Assembly: GCA_002010065.2 (NCBI GenBank)
Contig: MTMD02000013.1
Location: 1-31,357 of the forward strand
Origin: Candidatus Pyrohabitans jungbluthii
GTDB lineage: Archaea; Hydrothermarchaeota; Hydrothermarchaeia; Hydrothermarchaeales; BMS3B
DNA length: 31,357 nt
Reading direction: 5' to 3'
This document shows, in pieces, positions 25,244 to 30,671 of the stretch. The notes beneath the pieces are model-generated. The model saw only the letters and a list, made by a program, of their open reading frames with translations. It made no database searches and was not told where the DNA came from. Positions within the stretch are counted from its first letter, which is position 1. The number at the start of each line of letters is the position of its first letter. The position numbers and the translations under genes are program-made.

Positions 25244-26959
25244 CTAAAATCCTGCACTCTGTATGCAGTTCCTGTAAAACTCGTCTATCTCTCTCATCTC
25301 TTCCTCTGTGAATCTCCTCACGTACTTGTCCTCGCGAAGCCTCTTGCCCGTCTTCGCTTCCCATTCGCTGGCAGGTATACTGAACCTCTCCTGTATGCGG
25401 TCGCGGTAGAGCTCCGGCAAAACGTTGAAAGAGCAGAAGGGCACAATGCGAAGGTCAGGCAGGGCGTAGTGCACGCTGCACTTCCTTACGCGAGCGATGT
25501 CGTAGTTGTAGGTGTCCTGGAAGTGCATCATCCCTATGAAGAGGGAGTTTCGGTTAAGCTCCTTGAGCTCAGCGTAGGAGCCCCTCGTTAAGGAGGATAT
25601 GAGTACCCGCTTGAGGTCGAGGTACTCCGGCTTCTTTTCCTCGTCGATAAAACGGGAGATGTTGGCGAGTGCTTTAATGATTGAGATGCCCTTGCCAGCG
25701 AGCTTAAAGCGGGAGTGCTCCACCTCAAAGCTCAGCTCATGAAGGAACTCCAGGAAGCCCTCCACATCGAAGAATCGCGTCAGCGGCACTAGCTTGTCGC
25801 CCTGCTTGAAGGCGTAGGTTGCCATTCCGCATGCGAAGTGTGTAGACAGGCGGTACTTCGGTCTAGCGAAAATCGCCTCCATGAAGTCGGTTAGGCGAGC
25901 GGTACTCGGCACCGGGAAAAAGTCCTCCCTCGCTATGGCTCCGTCGGTCTGCTCCTCTATAGCCTTGATCACCCCGGGTATGGTTATGCGCTGCTTTTCG
26001 CGCTCCTCGCGAGGCATTCTTCCCACGAGGGAAACAGGCTGGAAGTTGACCCCGCGAACCACATCTAAGTTAGCGAAGGCAAAGCGTAAAATATCTCCCA
26101 ACTCGTGGTCGTTCGTACCTCGAATAACTGTGGGAACGAGCACCATGTTCATTCCGGTGATGCGCGCATTGCGTATTACCCCTGGCACCTCGTAGTAGTT
26201 CTTGGGATTCGTTTTCGGCGTAACCCCGTCGAAGCTCATGTAGAGAATGATATGCCCGCGCTTGCTTCCCACCTCTTTTATCTTCCTCATAAGCTCCAGA
26301 TTGCGGGAAAGCTCTATCCCGTTGGTGTTTAGCAGGATGTGCTGGAAGCCGGCTTCGCGGCACGCGGCGATTATCTCGAGCAGGTCATCCCGCAGCGTTG
26401 GTTCGCCCCCTGTGAGCTGTACCGCCTCAGCACCAACTGGGCGCTCATTACGAAGCACCTCAAGCATGCGCTTAATCCTCTCCAGCGAGGGTTCGTATAT
26501 CCTTCCACCCTCCTTAGCGTAGAAGAAGCAGTACCAGCACGCGATATTGCAGCGGTTTGTCACGACGATGTTCGCCAAGCCGGTGTGGGACTCATGCTCC
26601 TCGCAGAGGCCGCACTTCAGTGGGCACCTCGCCTTTGGCGCTTCCACGTTGGGATTGTGGAGCTTTATACCATCGTCAGCAAATCTGCTGGCTAAGTGGT
26701 ACATAGCTGCGTCTTCCCAGTAAACCTCTCTGGTTGCGCCGTGGGTGGAGCAGTACTTTGCTATCCACACCTTGTCATCCTTCTCATAAACCACCGCGTC
26801 TACGATCATTGCAGAGAAGTTCTTTTCTGAGGCGCAATCGGGGCAGAGCGAAGAGGTGTAGCGCAGAATCCTTGCATCCTCCCCTATAAGGCTGGAGAGA
26901 AAGCCAGACTCCACCTGTTGACCAAAGTCACAATTAAAGAGTGTACTCTGGCTTTCCAT
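25244..26959 (-). CDS. tes: Radical SAM tetraether lipid synthase (Tes) homologue
   Basis: This 571-residue radical SAM enzyme has the SAM cluster motif CNIACWYCFFYA (CX3CX2C), preceded by extra Cys groups LCPDCASEK, KYCSTHG and ARCPLKCGLC that match the auxiliary metal sites of Tes. QLTGGEPTLR is the SAM-binding GGE motif. The C-terminal CSVHYALPDLRIVPFCSFN and a YRDRIQE-type ending agree with the MJ0619/MA_1486 family. Tes joins the phytanyl tails of two archaeal lipids by carbon-carbon bonds to make membrane-spanning tetraethers (established for that family). GGGAGG lies 8 bases before ATG 26959. The multihaem cytochrome gene is 43 bases upstream on the same strand; the gap holds a TATA-like TTTTTTAAACC, so it may have its own promoter. 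Confidence 0.85.
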   Translation of the reverse strand: MESQSTLFNCDFGQQVESGFLSSLIGEDARILRYTSSLCPDCASEKNFSAMIVDAVVYEKDDKVWIAKYCSTHGATREVYWEDAAMYHLASRFADDGIKLHNPNVEAPKARCPLKCGLCEEHESHTGLANIVVTNRCNIACWYCFFYAKEGGRIYEPSLERIKRMLEVLRNERPVGAEAVQLTGGEPTLRDDLLEIIAACREAGFQHILLNTNGIELSRNLELMRKIKEVGSKRGHIILYMSFDGVTPKTNPKNYYEVPGVIRNARITGMNMVLVPTVIRGTNDHELGDILRFAFANLDVVRGVNFQPVSLVGRMPREEREKQRITIPGVIKAIEEQTDGAIAREDFFPVPSTARLTDFMEAIFARPKYRLSTHFACGMATYAFKQGDKLVPLTRFFDVEGFLEFLHELSFEVEHSRFKLAGKGISIIKALANISRFIDEEKKPEYLDLKRVLISSLTRGSYAELKELNRNSLFIGMMHFQDTYNYDIARVRKCSVHYALPDLRIVPFCSFNVLPELYRDRIQERFSIPASEWEAKTGKRLREDKYVRRFTEEEMREIDEFYRNCIQSAGF

Positions 26960-27002: not shown

Positions 27003-28772
27003 TTATTTTTCCTGATATTTAAGCTTTCGCTTTTTTCTTGAAATGTAGGCTGCCGCCGCTATCCCGACGAATACACCCAGCAATAGGATGGTCGCTGAGA
27101 GAAGCAGGGGTCTCTTTTTCAGATATTTTGGTTTAATAGTCTCATGAACGCCGTCGTGGCATTTCTCGCAGTTTTTGTCATTACAGTATTTCACCTTGCT
27201 CTTTATTGAAAAATCACCTGGGAAATTCCATCGAATACCATAAATCCAGGGTGCGTACTGCTCTGCTTTTTCCAGAGGAATTTCACTGGTGTTTCTGAGG
27301 AGGATAAACATGCCTGAGGAGTTGGCTATTACATAGCTCTCTCCGGAGAAATACACACTCTCAGAGATGTGCTCCCCATCATAACTCCACACCGCATAGC
27401 TGCGCTGTTCGCCTGTGGAATGGCAGCTATCGCATTCCCTGCCCTTACCAAAGCCGTGGGATACCTTGTCCATGTGCACCCAGGCGATGATTTTGTTGTA
27501 CCTTGGCAGAGAAGAGAAGGTGCCCACTACAGCGAAGGCATCGCGCGAGGAGTTGCGCAGCCCTGGCAGGGTCCTGAAGCTCAGGCTGGTGGAGTTGAGG
27601 CTGTGCTTCATGTTCAGCACCGCCTGGGGCATGGGTTTGACGGGAATCCACTTCCCAGCGTCGTCCCTTATCAATATTGGCACATTCATAATCCCGTAGT
27701 AGTTTATCTTCGCCAGAGGTGTGGGCATGCCGTAGTAGTCGCCAGGTGCCCAGAAGGTCGCCTGGTAGCCGGCTAAGCTCGAGACGTGGCACGCCTCGCA
27801 GGTTAAGTTTGCGTGCACACTCTTTGCAAGTTTAGCTTCTTCCCTTAGATGGCAATCGCCACAGGTGGCACTTCTGGTTATGTTGTGGTCCTGATAGGTG
27901 TGGCACTCCAGACAGGAAAGGTTCAGGTCAGCGTGTACATCATTGGGCAAGCCAAAAACCTCTTCACGGAAGTAGCCGGCGCCGCGGCGGTATTCCTCCG
28001 CGCCCACGTGGCATATTCCGCGCCCACCACCGAAGTAGCACGTGCTCGCCTCCACTCTGCGGGAGAAGAAGTGCGTACCTTCGCCTTTATCTGGCTGATA
28101 GTGGCAGTCCAAGCAGGAGGTGTGGCACTGCTGGCACACTCGATCGTTGAGCGCCGCCTGCTCCTCAGAGTAGGGCACCACCAGATCCTCGCGGATTTGG
28201 GAGATGTTTACAAGCCAGTAGCCGCAGTTGTGAGGCGCCGGCGAGGTGAATTTTGGATATGCGCTCTGCATTCTGGCGTTGCCCATGTTCGATGTCAGGT
28301 AGTCCTCCACCTGGCGGGGATGGCACTTTCCGCAGGTAGCGTTGGCGATGCTGAAGTTGAAGGCATAGCTCTCTTTGTTTCTGTCATGGTATAGCACCGT
28401 CTTGACCCGGTAGGGGTTGTTTATAATTCCCAGCGCAAGGCTTCCGGGATAATAAATGTCTATTTTTGGATAATAAGAGCGGTTGAGCTTAAAAAGAGCG
28501 TCCTCGCGGGAGATGATTAACAAAGAAAGCATTCCAGCGTGAGCGCCCTCCTTTGTGTAGTTCTCAGCATCGCCGAGGTGGCAGTCCTCGCACTGAGGGC
28601 CACCTAACCCCTGACGGTACATCTTGCTCTGATTCCACACCTCCTCAAGCGTAATCACAAACTCCTCGTAGCCCTGCATCAGCGTGGCATTCTCATGACA
28701 GTAAGTGCAGGAGCTTGCCTCCAGCGCGGGGAGGAGTACCCCCATTGCGAGTATTAAAAGCATCGCCCTCAT
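27003..28772 (-). CDS. Membrane-anchored multihaem cytochrome c (ten CxxCH plus one CX8CH)
   Basis: A 589-residue exported protein. The signal peptide spans residues 1-20, and CTYCH follows at once. In order the haem motifs are CTYCH, CEDCH, CGKCH, CQQCH, CLDCH, CLECH, CGDCH, CEACH, CDSCH and CEKCH. Between the fifth and sixth lies CYFGGGRGICH, a Cys-X8-Cys-His arrangement that could hold an eleventh haem. A C-terminal helix (LLLSATILLLGVFVGIAAAA) and a Lys/Arg tail anchor it with the haems outside. A 150-residue stretch without haem motifs between CEACH and CDSCH may be a separate domain. It should carry electrons at the outer membrane face; donor and acceptor are not deducible. Its ATG overlaps the stop of the thioredoxin-like lipoprotein (ATGA), so the two are coupled. 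Confidence 0.92.
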   Translation of the reverse strand: MRAMLLILAMGVLLPALEASSCTYCHENATLMQGYEEFVITLEEVWNQSKMYRQGLGGPQCEDCHLGDAENYTKEGAHAGMLSLLIISREDALFKLNRSYYPKIDIYYPGSLALGIINNPYRVKTVLYHDRNKESYAFNFSIANATCGKCHPRQVEDYLTSNMGNARMQSAYPKFTSPAPHNCGYWLVNISQIREDLVVPYSEEQAALNDRVCQQCHTSCLDCHYQPDKGEGTHFFSRRVEASTCYFGGGRGICHVGAEEYRRGAGYFREEVFGLPNDVHADLNLSCLECHTYQDHNITRSATCGDCHLREEAKLAKSVHANLTCEACHVSSLAGYQATFWAPGDYYGMPTPLAKINYYGIMNVPILIRDDAGKWIPVKPMPQAVLNMKHSLNSTSLSFRTLPGLRNSSRDAFAVVGTFSSLPRYNKIIAWVHMDKVSHGFGKGRECDSCHSTGEQRSYAVWSYDGEHISESVYFSGESYVIANSSGMFILLRNTSEIPLEKAEQYAPWIYGIRWNFPGDFSIKSKVKYCNDKNCEKCHDGVHETIKPKYLKKRPLLLSATILLLGVFVGIAAAAYISRKKRKLKYQEK

Positions 28773-29167
28773 TTTTCCAGAAGCTCTAGTATCATTTCTT
28801 CAAATCTGTCCTCGGGGATGTACCCGACTGCGCCACCCACCATCTCGCCTTTTGAGTTTAAGAGCACAAATGTGGGCGTCCCTCTTATTCCAAACTTCTT
28901 TACCAGCGCCTTTTCCTTGTCGTAGTTGAGTATTACGATGTTCACCCTGTCACCATACTTTGTCTTCATCTTTTCCACCGTTGGGGCCATGCGCAGGCAG
29001 ATGCTGCACCAGGTAGCTGAGAACTCAACAATTGTCGGCTTTCCGCTCGCCAGCGCCTTTTCATAATCTTCGCGGGTGTCAAAGCTTATCCCATCATTTC
29101 CCCCCTTCTCTCCGATGCATGCCGCAAATAAGAGGGTAACCATGAAAACTGCCAACAACTTCTGCAT
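28769..29167 (-). CDS. Thioredoxin-like lipoprotein (TlpA/ResA type)
   Basis: A 132-residue protein with a lipobox LLFAAC (C17), so it is probably lipid-anchored outside the cell. The thioredoxin domain has ATWCSIC (C54, C57), the cis-Pro turn RGTPTFVLL and the closing strands GGAVGYI. Extracytoplasmic CxxC thioredoxins next to cytochrome c genes commonly reduce the apocytochrome haem-binding cysteines before haem attachment. The coupled multihaem gene, which needs at least twenty reduced cysteines, makes that role likely (inference). GGTGAT directly precedes ATG 29167; a TATA-like AAATATTTTATTAAG lies about 30-50 bases upstream. Confidence 0.88.
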   Translation of the reverse strand: MQKLLAVFMVTLLFAACIGEKGGNDGISFDTREDYEKALASGKPTIVEFSATWCSICLRMAPTVEKMKTKYGDRVNIVILNYDKEKALVKKFGIRGTPTFVLLNSKGEMVGGAVGYIPEDRFEEMILELLEK

Positions 29168-29321: not shown

Positions 29322-29416
29322 AATCGGAAAAATTTATATAGGGGTTTCTTAGAAAATTAGCCTGAAACCCGAGAGACTTCGGGTGAGACCGAAAGGATCT
29401 TTGAGTAAGGAGGTGA
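29322..29416 (+). promoter_or_regulatory. Strong promoter and structured 5' leader of the propeller gene
   Basis: ATCGGAAAAATTTATATAGG (about 29323-29342) is a near-ideal archaeal BRE plus TATA box. Transcription should start near 29360. The roughly 60-base leader holds two tandem hairpins: ACCCGA/TCGGGT (29367-29372 with 29379-29384, 6-base loop) and AGACC-GAAA-GG-A-TCT (29386-29400, GNRA tetraloop, bulged A). An ideal ribosome site GGAGGTGA follows at 29409-29416. The rest of 29168-29321 shows no gene. Confidence 0.65.
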
Positions 29417-29420
29417 ACAT

Positions 29421-30671
29421 GTGGCAAAGCCTAGGACTCTGGCAGTACTTTTAGGTTTAGTTTTGGTTCTCGGAATACTCAGCGCAGGGTGTGCACAGAA
29501 GCCAGCGGAGCAGGTACCAAGTGAGGAGAAGCCTGCTGTGGTAAAGAAGACCCACAAAGCTAGAATATACACCAACGGTCACGGTGGACATCTCTCAGTA
29601 ACTGACATAGAGATAGACCCGCGCACAAAGGAAGTGCGAGTGGTTGCTGGTCCTGCAAGGCTCAAGGCTCAGGGCTATGGCAGCGACAAAGCTTCGCATG
29701 CGGTTTCACTCAGCAAGGACGGCAAGACGCTCTACTGGGCAGCTCTTGACGGCACCATAACAGAGATCAACCTCGCTGAGGTTGGGTTAACCTTCGACAA
29801 GACTCCATGGGGTAAGCTCAAGCGCTTTAAGACCTACGTGGCGAAGAATGTGGAGTGGAAGGAACTCGGTGGTAGCGAGGACAACCTGCACTGTGGCACA
29901 AGCCTGAGCCCTGACGGCAAGCTTCTGTATGTCTCGAGCATAGCGAGCGGTGCGGTGCTGGTGTACGACACCCAGAAGCACCAGAAGGTTGACAAGATAC
30001 CTGTCGACGCCTTCCTGTGCACTGCGCAGGTAACCCGTGACGGCAAGTATCTCTATGCTGCGAACATGGCGAGCGGTGTGCTCAACAAGGTCAATCTGAA
30101 GACGGGTGAGGTTGAGAAGAAGGTCGACCTTACTGAGATGAACGGTTACTTCCTGCACATTGGCGAGATTGAGCCCACAGGACGCTATCTGTGGCAGACC
30201 GCAGCCAATGAGTTCAAGGAGGGCAAGCCCTACAACATACCCGTGGAAGGCGCCACCGGCATTGGTCAGGGCTACATAATAATCTACGACACCGTCAAGG
30301 ATGAGCCGGTTGAGGCAATCAACGTGCCGGGCAACCCCCACGATGTGACCTTCACCAAAGACGGGCGCTTCGCTATCTCCTCAATACGCCATCCGCCGAG
30401 CGATCCCACGAGCAGCGCCATAATAGTTATAGACACCCAGAGCAAGCAGCTCCTCAAGATAAAGGACGAGCAGACAGGCAGCGAGGTTACCGAGTTTGAC
30501 GTCTGCAACGCTTGCCACAATGAGGTTGGCGCCGACCTGAGCAACTTCGTTGACCCCGAAACCCAGGTTCTGGTGAACCTCGGCTTGCTGGAGCACCCCG
30601 AGAAGGGCATTGCTCTGCACTGCGGTATAGACGCAGCGTGGGCAGAGAAGGTTAGCCTCGGCTGCGGCTGA
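29421..30671 (+). CDS. Beta-propeller lipoprotein with C-terminal haem c motif
   Basis: A 416-residue exported protein. Lipobox LSAGC (C24) follows the hydrophobic core. Residues about 45-350 form YVTN/cytochrome-d1-like propeller blades, shown by repeated SKDGKTLYWAALDG, SPDGKLLYVSSIASGAVLVYD, TRDGKYLYAANMASG and TKDGRFAIS strands. Near the C terminus lies CNACH (C362, C365, H366), a single haem c site, then a tail with HCGID and a final SLGCG. Other cysteines sit in HCGTS and FLCTA. The start is GTG 29421, 4 bases after GGAGGTGA; the nearby ATG opens only a short frame. It may pass electrons to or from the multihaem cytochrome (inference). I do not recognise a characterised enzyme of this exact layout. 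Confidence 0.82.
   Translation: MAKPRTLAVLLGLVLVLGILSAGCAQKPAEQVPSEEKPAVVKKTHKARIYTNGHGGHLSVTDIEIDPRTKEVRVVAGPARLKAQGYGSDKASHAVSLSKDGKTLYWAALDGTITEINLAEVGLTFDKTPWGKLKRFKTYVAKNVEWKELGGSEDNLHCGTSLSPDGKLLYVSSIASGAVLVYDTQKHQKVDKIPVDAFLCTAQVTRDGKYLYAANMASGVLNKVNLKTGEVEKKVDLTEMNGYFLHIGEIEPTGRYLWQTAANEFKEGKPYNIPVEGATGIGQGYIIIYDTVKDEPVEAINVPGNPHDVTFTKDGRFAISSIRHPPSDPTSSAIIVIDTQSKQLLKIKDEQTGSEVTEFDVCNACHNEVGADLSNFVDPETQVLVNLGLLEHPEKGIALHCGIDAAWAEKVSLGCG

Follow-up and report, generated by a model that had tools for sequence, protein, structure and literature searches.

Propeller enzymes with a metal site are few, namely NosZ, thiocyanate dehydrogenase (TcDH) and methanethiol oxidase, and their chemistry is weighty for the climate and the sulfur cycle. 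The copper sites of NosZ and TcDH are made up of histidines throughout, and the histidine of the NosZ motif SPHG is an established ligand of the CuZ centre. TcDH splits thiocyanate, yielding cyanate and sulfur, and in vitro a single-haem cytochrome takes up the electrons (PMC9456337). A propeller combined with haem c or another tetrapyrrole is found in cytochrome cd1, NirN and NirF; these propellers have eight blades, and in cd1 and NirN the haem domain is N-terminal. NosL and PCu(A)C are chaperones of copper sites (PMC6530538), and ExtN, ExtO and ExtP of Geobacter are Ext cytochromes connected with selenite and tellurite reduction (PMC5877670). The window studied here, i.e. the whole stretch of 31,357 nucleotides from Candidatus Pyrohabitans jungbluthii, encodes a propeller lipoprotein which by the defining features tested is not NosZ, L-NosZ, TcDH, cytochrome cd1 or a class I cytochrome c. 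Judged from its sequence and from structural models, it may be placed among the metal-site propeller enzymes as a new variant with a predicted metal site.

The sequence-only reading of this DNA had described a propeller lipoprotein with one CxxCH, facing on the opposite strand a thioredoxin-like lipoprotein and a membrane-anchored multihaem cytochrome. The open reading frame, the lipobox LSAGC and the motif CNACH were all recovered, and both neighbours are as described (Table 1). By chance 0.003 CxxCH motifs would be expected in the propeller protein, which contains a single one. The chain has exactly seven cysteines: Cys24 (lipid), Cys158, Cys200 and Cys401 (the ring described below), Cys362 and Cys365 (CxxCH) and Cys415 (tail), so that with the ring assignment every one of them has a place. 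Upstream of the gene the AT-rich element AAAAATTTATATA presumably forms part of the promoter, whereas an RNA element 5′ of the gene was rejected with an Rfam match at chance level only and a fold z of −1.4.

Table 1. Features of the propeller gene and its neighbours on the opposite strand (positions in the window)
Feature	Position	Strand	Remarks
Decahaem cytochrome	27003..28772	-	589 aa; exactly ten CxxCH; C-terminal hydrophobic helix/anchor
Thioredoxin-fold lipoprotein	28769..29167	-	CSIC active site; divergent neighbour
TATA-like AT-rich element AAAAATTTATATA	29327..29341	+	identical in 4/4 orthologues
Ribosome-binding site AAGGAGGTGA	29408..29417	+	directly 5′ of the GTG; strong
Propeller lipoprotein ORF (type A)	29421..30671	+	416 aa; GTG start; one CxxCH
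Signal peptide and lipobox LSAGC	29421..29492	+	lipidation of Cys24 predicted from the motif
GHGGH, residues 53–57	29577..29591	+	aligns with SGGHSGE of true NosZ
Ring residue H93	29697..29699	+	blade 2 inner strand
Ring residue C158	29892..29894	+	blade 3 inner strand
Ring residue C200	30018..30020	+	blade 4 inner strand; His in type B
Ring residue H246	30156..30158	+	blade 5 inner strand; Arg in type B
Ring residue H307	30339..30341	+	blade 6 inner strand; equals TcDH His482 and the His of NosZ SPHG by alignment
CNACH haem c attachment motif, residues 362–366	30504..30518	+	linker between blade 6 and closing strand
HCGIDAAW closing (velcro) strand with ring residue C401	30618..30641	+	predicted inner strand of blade 1; same in type B model
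C-terminal tail VSLGCG	30651..30668	+	within the phylum confined to propeller relatives and one PCu(A)C

Profile searches split the family into three types. Type A comprises the proteins of the window, of its genus and of G010 (65% identical), and type B is a paralogue (24–28% identical) present in G006, G007, G020 and G021. Type C was found in G044, outside the phylum, where the contig ends within the gene, and G011 holds an untyped propeller fragment. The family occurs in nine of 394 archaeal genomes, eight of them from the phylum of the window. The window genome itself is archaeal (1.99 Mb); a copy 97% identical is present in the Candidatus Pyrohabitans MAG JdFR-17 and copies 81–83% identical in further MAGs, of which one bears the label Hydrothermarchaeota, and a scan of GTDB contigs returned only three close relatives, all hydrothermal-type archaeal MAGs. 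A tblastn search of plasmid records with the propeller gave no match. In the literature searched, whose coverage is incomplete, no described propeller with a C-terminal CxxCH was found. The type A gene (window 29405–29450) and a type B gene (L009 1580–1645, minus strand) agree almost fully in the ribosome-binding site and in the first part of the signal peptide (GGAGGTGANCATGTGGCAAAGCC, AKPKTLA), and such 5′ ends on genes for proteins about 25% identical overall suggest that the 5′ end may have been exchanged.

Every homologue of type A or B keeps C-x-(A/S)-C-H, and in the form C-x(2,3)-C-H the motif extends to all three types; homologues lacking it, which the sequence-only reading had named as a refutation, were thus not among them. 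From the haem motif to the closing strand the types read CNACH...HCGID, CKACH...LCGID and CRKACH...LCGA, with a Cys-Gly-(Ile/Ala) strand in each. The type C gene (L056:9098–9916) has CxxxCH (CRKACH) instead of CxxCH, and haem-c assembly genes are present in its genome; should CxxxCH bind haem, it would be one of the rare haem motifs. Near the N-terminus H57 of GHGGH is near-invariant in the homologue alignment.

The sequence-only reading had proposed that the blades be counted by structure prediction. The AlphaFold model of type A has six four-stranded blades (pLDDT 76, pTM 0.79) and that of type B likewise (pLDDT 83, pTM 0.79), the blades having been grouped by us from the strand lists of both models. 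Both models, of proteins about 25% identical, place a helix with CxxCH behind blade 6 and a cysteine in the closing strand, and in both the inner-strand place of blade 1 is taken by the final strand of the chain (residues 400–407 in type A, 392–396 in type B). CNACH is therefore predicted to lie in the linker that leads from blade 6 to the closing strand ALHCGID, after which the chain re-enters the propeller. With this placement there would be no separate or appended haem domain. The motif indeed follows all six predicted blades, as its description as C-terminal had implied, but it precedes the closing strand and is not an appendage; similarly, HCGID and the final GCG are real, but what had been taken for an unusual Cys-rich tail is the strand that closes the blade, followed by a short tail. 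The gap from CxxCH to this strand measures 13–33 residues, so that a normal-size cytochrome c domain would not fit. A class I cytochrome c domain (about 80 residues, helical, with a distal Met) was rejected on this short gap and on the missing Pfam cytochrome c match. The linker around CxxCH belongs to the least certain parts of the models (pLDDT 46–69 in type A). The protein has a lipobox for export and the CNACH motif, and the haem-c assembly protein Cytochrom_C_asm is encoded in all six genomes tested; on this basis CNACH would carry a covalently attached c-type haem.

The Pfam model Cytochrom_D1 matches the window propeller marginally (26.7 bits against a cut-off of 25.5), as do generic propeller models, and type C reaches 38.5 bits. 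An automatic pipeline would therefore assign a cd1 haem domain, to which the blade count and the domain order are opposed: membership in cytochrome cd1 was rejected, as the d1 propeller has eight blades and six are predicted here, and as the sole CxxCH lies at residues 362–366 and not in an N-terminal cytochrome c domain. Nevertheless, these scores and the genomic position of type B, whose gene, together with that of a permease, has hemA, an AhbD-like radical SAM gene and dsrAB as neighbours in G006 and G007, would suit a relative of NirF, NirN or cytochrome cd1 engaged in the biosynthesis or use of a modified tetrapyrrole (haem d1 or sirohaem). We regard such a role as very unlikely, since besides the blade count the match to NirF is weak, and the dsr/hemA locus of the window genome is devoid of a propeller, the type A gene being located elsewhere.

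In the models one inner-strand position is occupied by His or Cys in all six blades, yielding a ring of C401, H93, C158, C200, H246 and H307. This ring, the most striking feature of the propeller, was missed by the sequence-only reading. H93, C158, C200, H246 and H307 each stand exactly 8 residues ahead of the Gly of the five xDG/xTG turns (5/5), while in the window protein the other turn offsets hold at most one His or Cys each; five His or Cys at any offset from 3 to 13 arose in 1 of 200,000 shuffles. In YVTN-type repeats, a His at this distance from the turn is no rarity. The sixth member, C401, is supplied by the closing strand. Assigned by eye, from sequence, the ring of type C reads H, C, C, H, H plus a Cys (the CGA strand being kept), and that of type B, from sequence and model, C, H, C, H, R, H, so that C-H-C and the His of blade 6 are kept. 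The ring residues are predicted to occupy the inner-strand positions of the metal ligands in NosZ and TcDH. As the sequence likeness is weak and the fold is common to many propellers, the ring supports a metal site and is no proof of a metal or of copper.

The likeness to TcDH is local. For residues 270–350 the best PDB matches are thiocyanate dehydrogenases (E 0.003–0.02), and of the His ligands of the three-copper centre only His482, which equals H307, can be aligned in this match; PDB entry 6sji is the TcDH mutant H482Q, 482 being the full-length numbering. As in TcDH from Thioalkalivibrio paradoxus (PMC9456337), we see a propeller in which the metal ligands would sit at the starts of inner strands, H307 corresponding to His482. 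TcDH passes its electrons to a single-haem c cytochrome and uses a sulfur substrate, and the window propeller may have counterparts of both. On the contrary, TcDH has seven blades, three copper ions and a separate cytochrome, whereas the window propeller has six predicted blades, three cysteines in the ring and the haem motif in its own chain. Membership in the TcDH family was rejected on the blade number of the two predicted models.

The model of type B aligns with TcDH over 286–295 residues by VIA-align (Z about 20), but many non-enzyme propellers also match structurally at Z about 20, and the top structural matches of the type A model are six-bladed YWTD-type propellers (Z 27, 257 residues, 2.5 Å). 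A strong structural match to any propeller is thus to be expected, and fold likeness is weak evidence. Given that the best PDB sequence match is a YVTN surface-layer protein, one might regard the protein as a structural surface protein of this type, in which CxxCH and the other cysteines form disulfides or have another role and neither haem nor metal is bound. The specific conservation of ring, CxxCH and CGI, the constant decahaem neighbour described below and the presence of the haem-c machinery make this highly improbable.

With NosZ (TIGR04244/TIGR04246) and the clade III L-NosZ (NF052460) the propeller has in common a His at the same inner-strand position, a GGH motif and copper chaperones of the NosL/PCu(A)C type in the genomic surroundings. 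In the profile comparison with true NosZ, NPHD falls on SPHG and GHGGH on SGGHSGE. Unlike NosZ, the window propeller has neither the CuA cupredoxin domain nor HHxH, and it has six blades and cysteines in the ring. As NosZ or L-NosZ it was rejected on three grounds: by score (38–49 bits with NF052460, 42.5 in the membership test, against 700; 16.9 with TIGR04246 against 625), by the CuA domain, as the chain ends nine residues past the closing strand and has no cupredoxin match, and by the seven CuZ histidines including the HH pair, as the ring holds three His and three Cys and blade 2 reads SHAV where NosZ has THHPH. The two true NosZ proteins used in the profile comparison, both of the same phylum, reach 892 (G006) and 921 bits against the cut-off of 625, and a search for nosZ in the window genome gave no match over the cut-off. 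In the sister genome G006 (L084:5569–11813, G006:C7) a true TAT-type nosZ is followed by nosR-like, apbE-like and nosD-like genes.

Close orthologues of the decahaem cytochrome (48–94% identity) are found in 8 of the 23 phylum genomes. Seven of these eight contain an intact propeller gene, and in all seven the decahaem gene lies within about 2.5 kb of it (hypergeometric 2.5e-4, calculated by hand and uncorrected for relatedness), so that the neighbourhood survey proposed in the sequence-only reading bears out the linkage. The exceptions, G011 and G012, are both 62% complete. A decahaem partner was not found in the type C genome G044, where a membrane ferredoxin (Fer4_5) is encoded at the type C locus. 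In G010 the genes next after the decahaem gene encode a Rieske protein and a cytochrome b resembling ExtP. The decahaem neighbour is weakly similar to ExtN and ExtO and the G010 cytochrome b is similar to ExtP (1.2e-53), all under the curated cut-offs; we know of no propeller of the window kind in ext clusters. A second, longer decahaem paralogue (about 43% identical) was noticed in G007:C130, G008:C116, G009:C27 and G021:C59, once without a propeller.

The conserved haem motif, the decahaem neighbour in all intact cases and the cytochrome b and Rieske genes nearby in relatives could also mean that the protein is a pure electron-transfer haem lipoprotein whose propeller docks the decahaem cytochrome and whose only cofactor is the CNACH haem. 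We consider this unlikely, as it leaves unexplained both the conservation of the His/Cys ring across types A, B and C and the tail in common with a copper chaperone (see below). This alternative corresponds to the electron-transfer side of the sequence-only reading, which had seen an undescribed extracellular electron-transfer or redox-enzyme module; the propeller lipoprotein is indeed uncharacterised, and its gene is physically linked to the decahaem gene, but no evidence was found for extracellular transfer to solids. The surrounding genes speak rather for a metalloenzyme of sulfur or copper biology.

Sulfur genes adjoin the propeller in some genomes only. In G020 and G021 the type B gene is followed by DsrH/TusB and DsrE-type genes, the decahaem gene and YeeE/YedE-type transporters, with TusA in G021, while in the window genome sulfur genes are located on another contig. 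A strict co-occurrence of dsrA and propeller was rejected, as dsrA is also present in genomes without the propeller and G009 has no match over the cut-off.

The pattern V-x-L-G-C-G-stop occurs six times in the 23 phylum genomes, in five propellers and in the PCu(A)C protein of G020; the reversed control pattern occurs zero times. In G020 the last nine residues, EEEVQLGCG, are identical in PCu(A)C (G020:C5:10711–11181; L071:5712–6182) and propeller (L012:1486–2751). Type B of the genus, G021 and type C lack the tail, and in G010 it reads LGCM. One may guess that a common tail means a common partner or handover signal. In G010 the genes that come after the propeller encode a pair of FtsX-type permeases, an ATPase resembling LolD and the copper chaperone PCu(A)C. 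The links to copper chaperones come from relatives and not from the window cluster. In the window genome tandem permeases of the linked family lie on another contig beside TusA, YeeE and a cupredoxin, and on a third contig one permease of the CC-type family lies beside NosL.

Could the propeller then be a carrier or assembly factor for copper or another metal, in which ring and GCG tail bind the metal for delivery and the haem or CxxCH reduces it? The PCu(A)C genes of G010 and G020, the latter with the same tail, and NosL beside the linked permease would suit such a role. The constant decahaem partner with Rieske protein and cytochrome b fits catalysis or respiration better, and several relatives are without the tail, which leads us to judge a carrier quite unlikely.

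A CC pair in the outer domain is common to most permeases of the propeller-linked family. These FtsX/MacB-type permeases, with the CC pair before GFDPxTDF (L070:7072–8274, L069:8515–11623, L017:9305–12417, L021:1676–2842, L056:986–2176), recur beside propeller, NosL, TusA/YeeE or PCu(A)C, and possibly they constitute a transport or assembly system for metal or sulfur. They may resemble the P19-linked ABC genes of Campylobacter.

The hole ringed by His and Cys, the haem site and the gene for a ten-haem partner together indicate that the window propeller is probably an undescribed metal redox enzyme, acting perhaps on sulfur compounds. Tentatively, and with a little less than even confidence, we propose a lipid-anchored propeller oxidoreductase with haem c and a metal site of Cys and His, perhaps filled by copper; it would exchange electrons with the decahaem cytochrome and use a sulfur substrate. 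The gene, its motifs, their conservation, the periodicity of the ring and the gene linkage are observed, and the six blades with the ring on their inner strands come from computed models; what we infer beyond these is that a metal is bound and that it is copper, that haem is attached, which route the electrons take, that the substrate is a sulfur compound and which way the reaction runs. In this scheme the protein would be an outward-facing lipoprotein whose metal centre sits where the central channel opens, held by the ring of three His and three Cys. The metal could be copper. The haem c at CNACH, beside the strand closing blade 1, would relay electrons between the metal centre and the decahaem cytochrome, which, on the pattern of the relatives, would connect to Rieske protein and cytochrome b and to the quinone pool. 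The sulfur-relay and dsr genes nearby suggest, by analogy with TcDH, an inorganic sulfur substrate, likely a small species that might undergo a TcDH-like two-electron step and whose sulfur would be handed to YeeE/TusA/DsrEFH in genomes that encode them. Sulfidic vents offer little copper, and an Fe-S centre, haem or another metal could be bound by the Cys3His3 ligands instead.

A more far-reaching proposal, which in its entirety appears doubtful to us, is a new class of metal-propeller enzymes with six blades, a Cys3His3 ring (Cys2His3 in type B) and a haem relay in the blade-closing segment, supplied with metal by a PCu(A)C-type chaperone with the same C-terminal tag and coupling extracellular inorganic sulfur chemistry to a decahaem/cytochrome b chain. 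If true, hot deep-sea archaea, often with DsrAB, would have a new design of metal site with cysteines in the ring and a built-in haem. The ring provides defined residues for testing, and the tail common to propeller and copper chaperone makes metal delivery directly testable.

Two further observations were made. The radical SAM gene adjoining the decahaem gene (25244–26959, minus strand) matches the tetraether lipid synthase Tes above the curated cut-off (665 bits against 450). In the window genome the dsrAB/hemA locus (L035:12136–12538, G000:C7) cleanly lacks the pair of type B propeller and permease by comparison with L021 and L022; the pair, present at this place in two congeners, may be a lost or mobile cassette.
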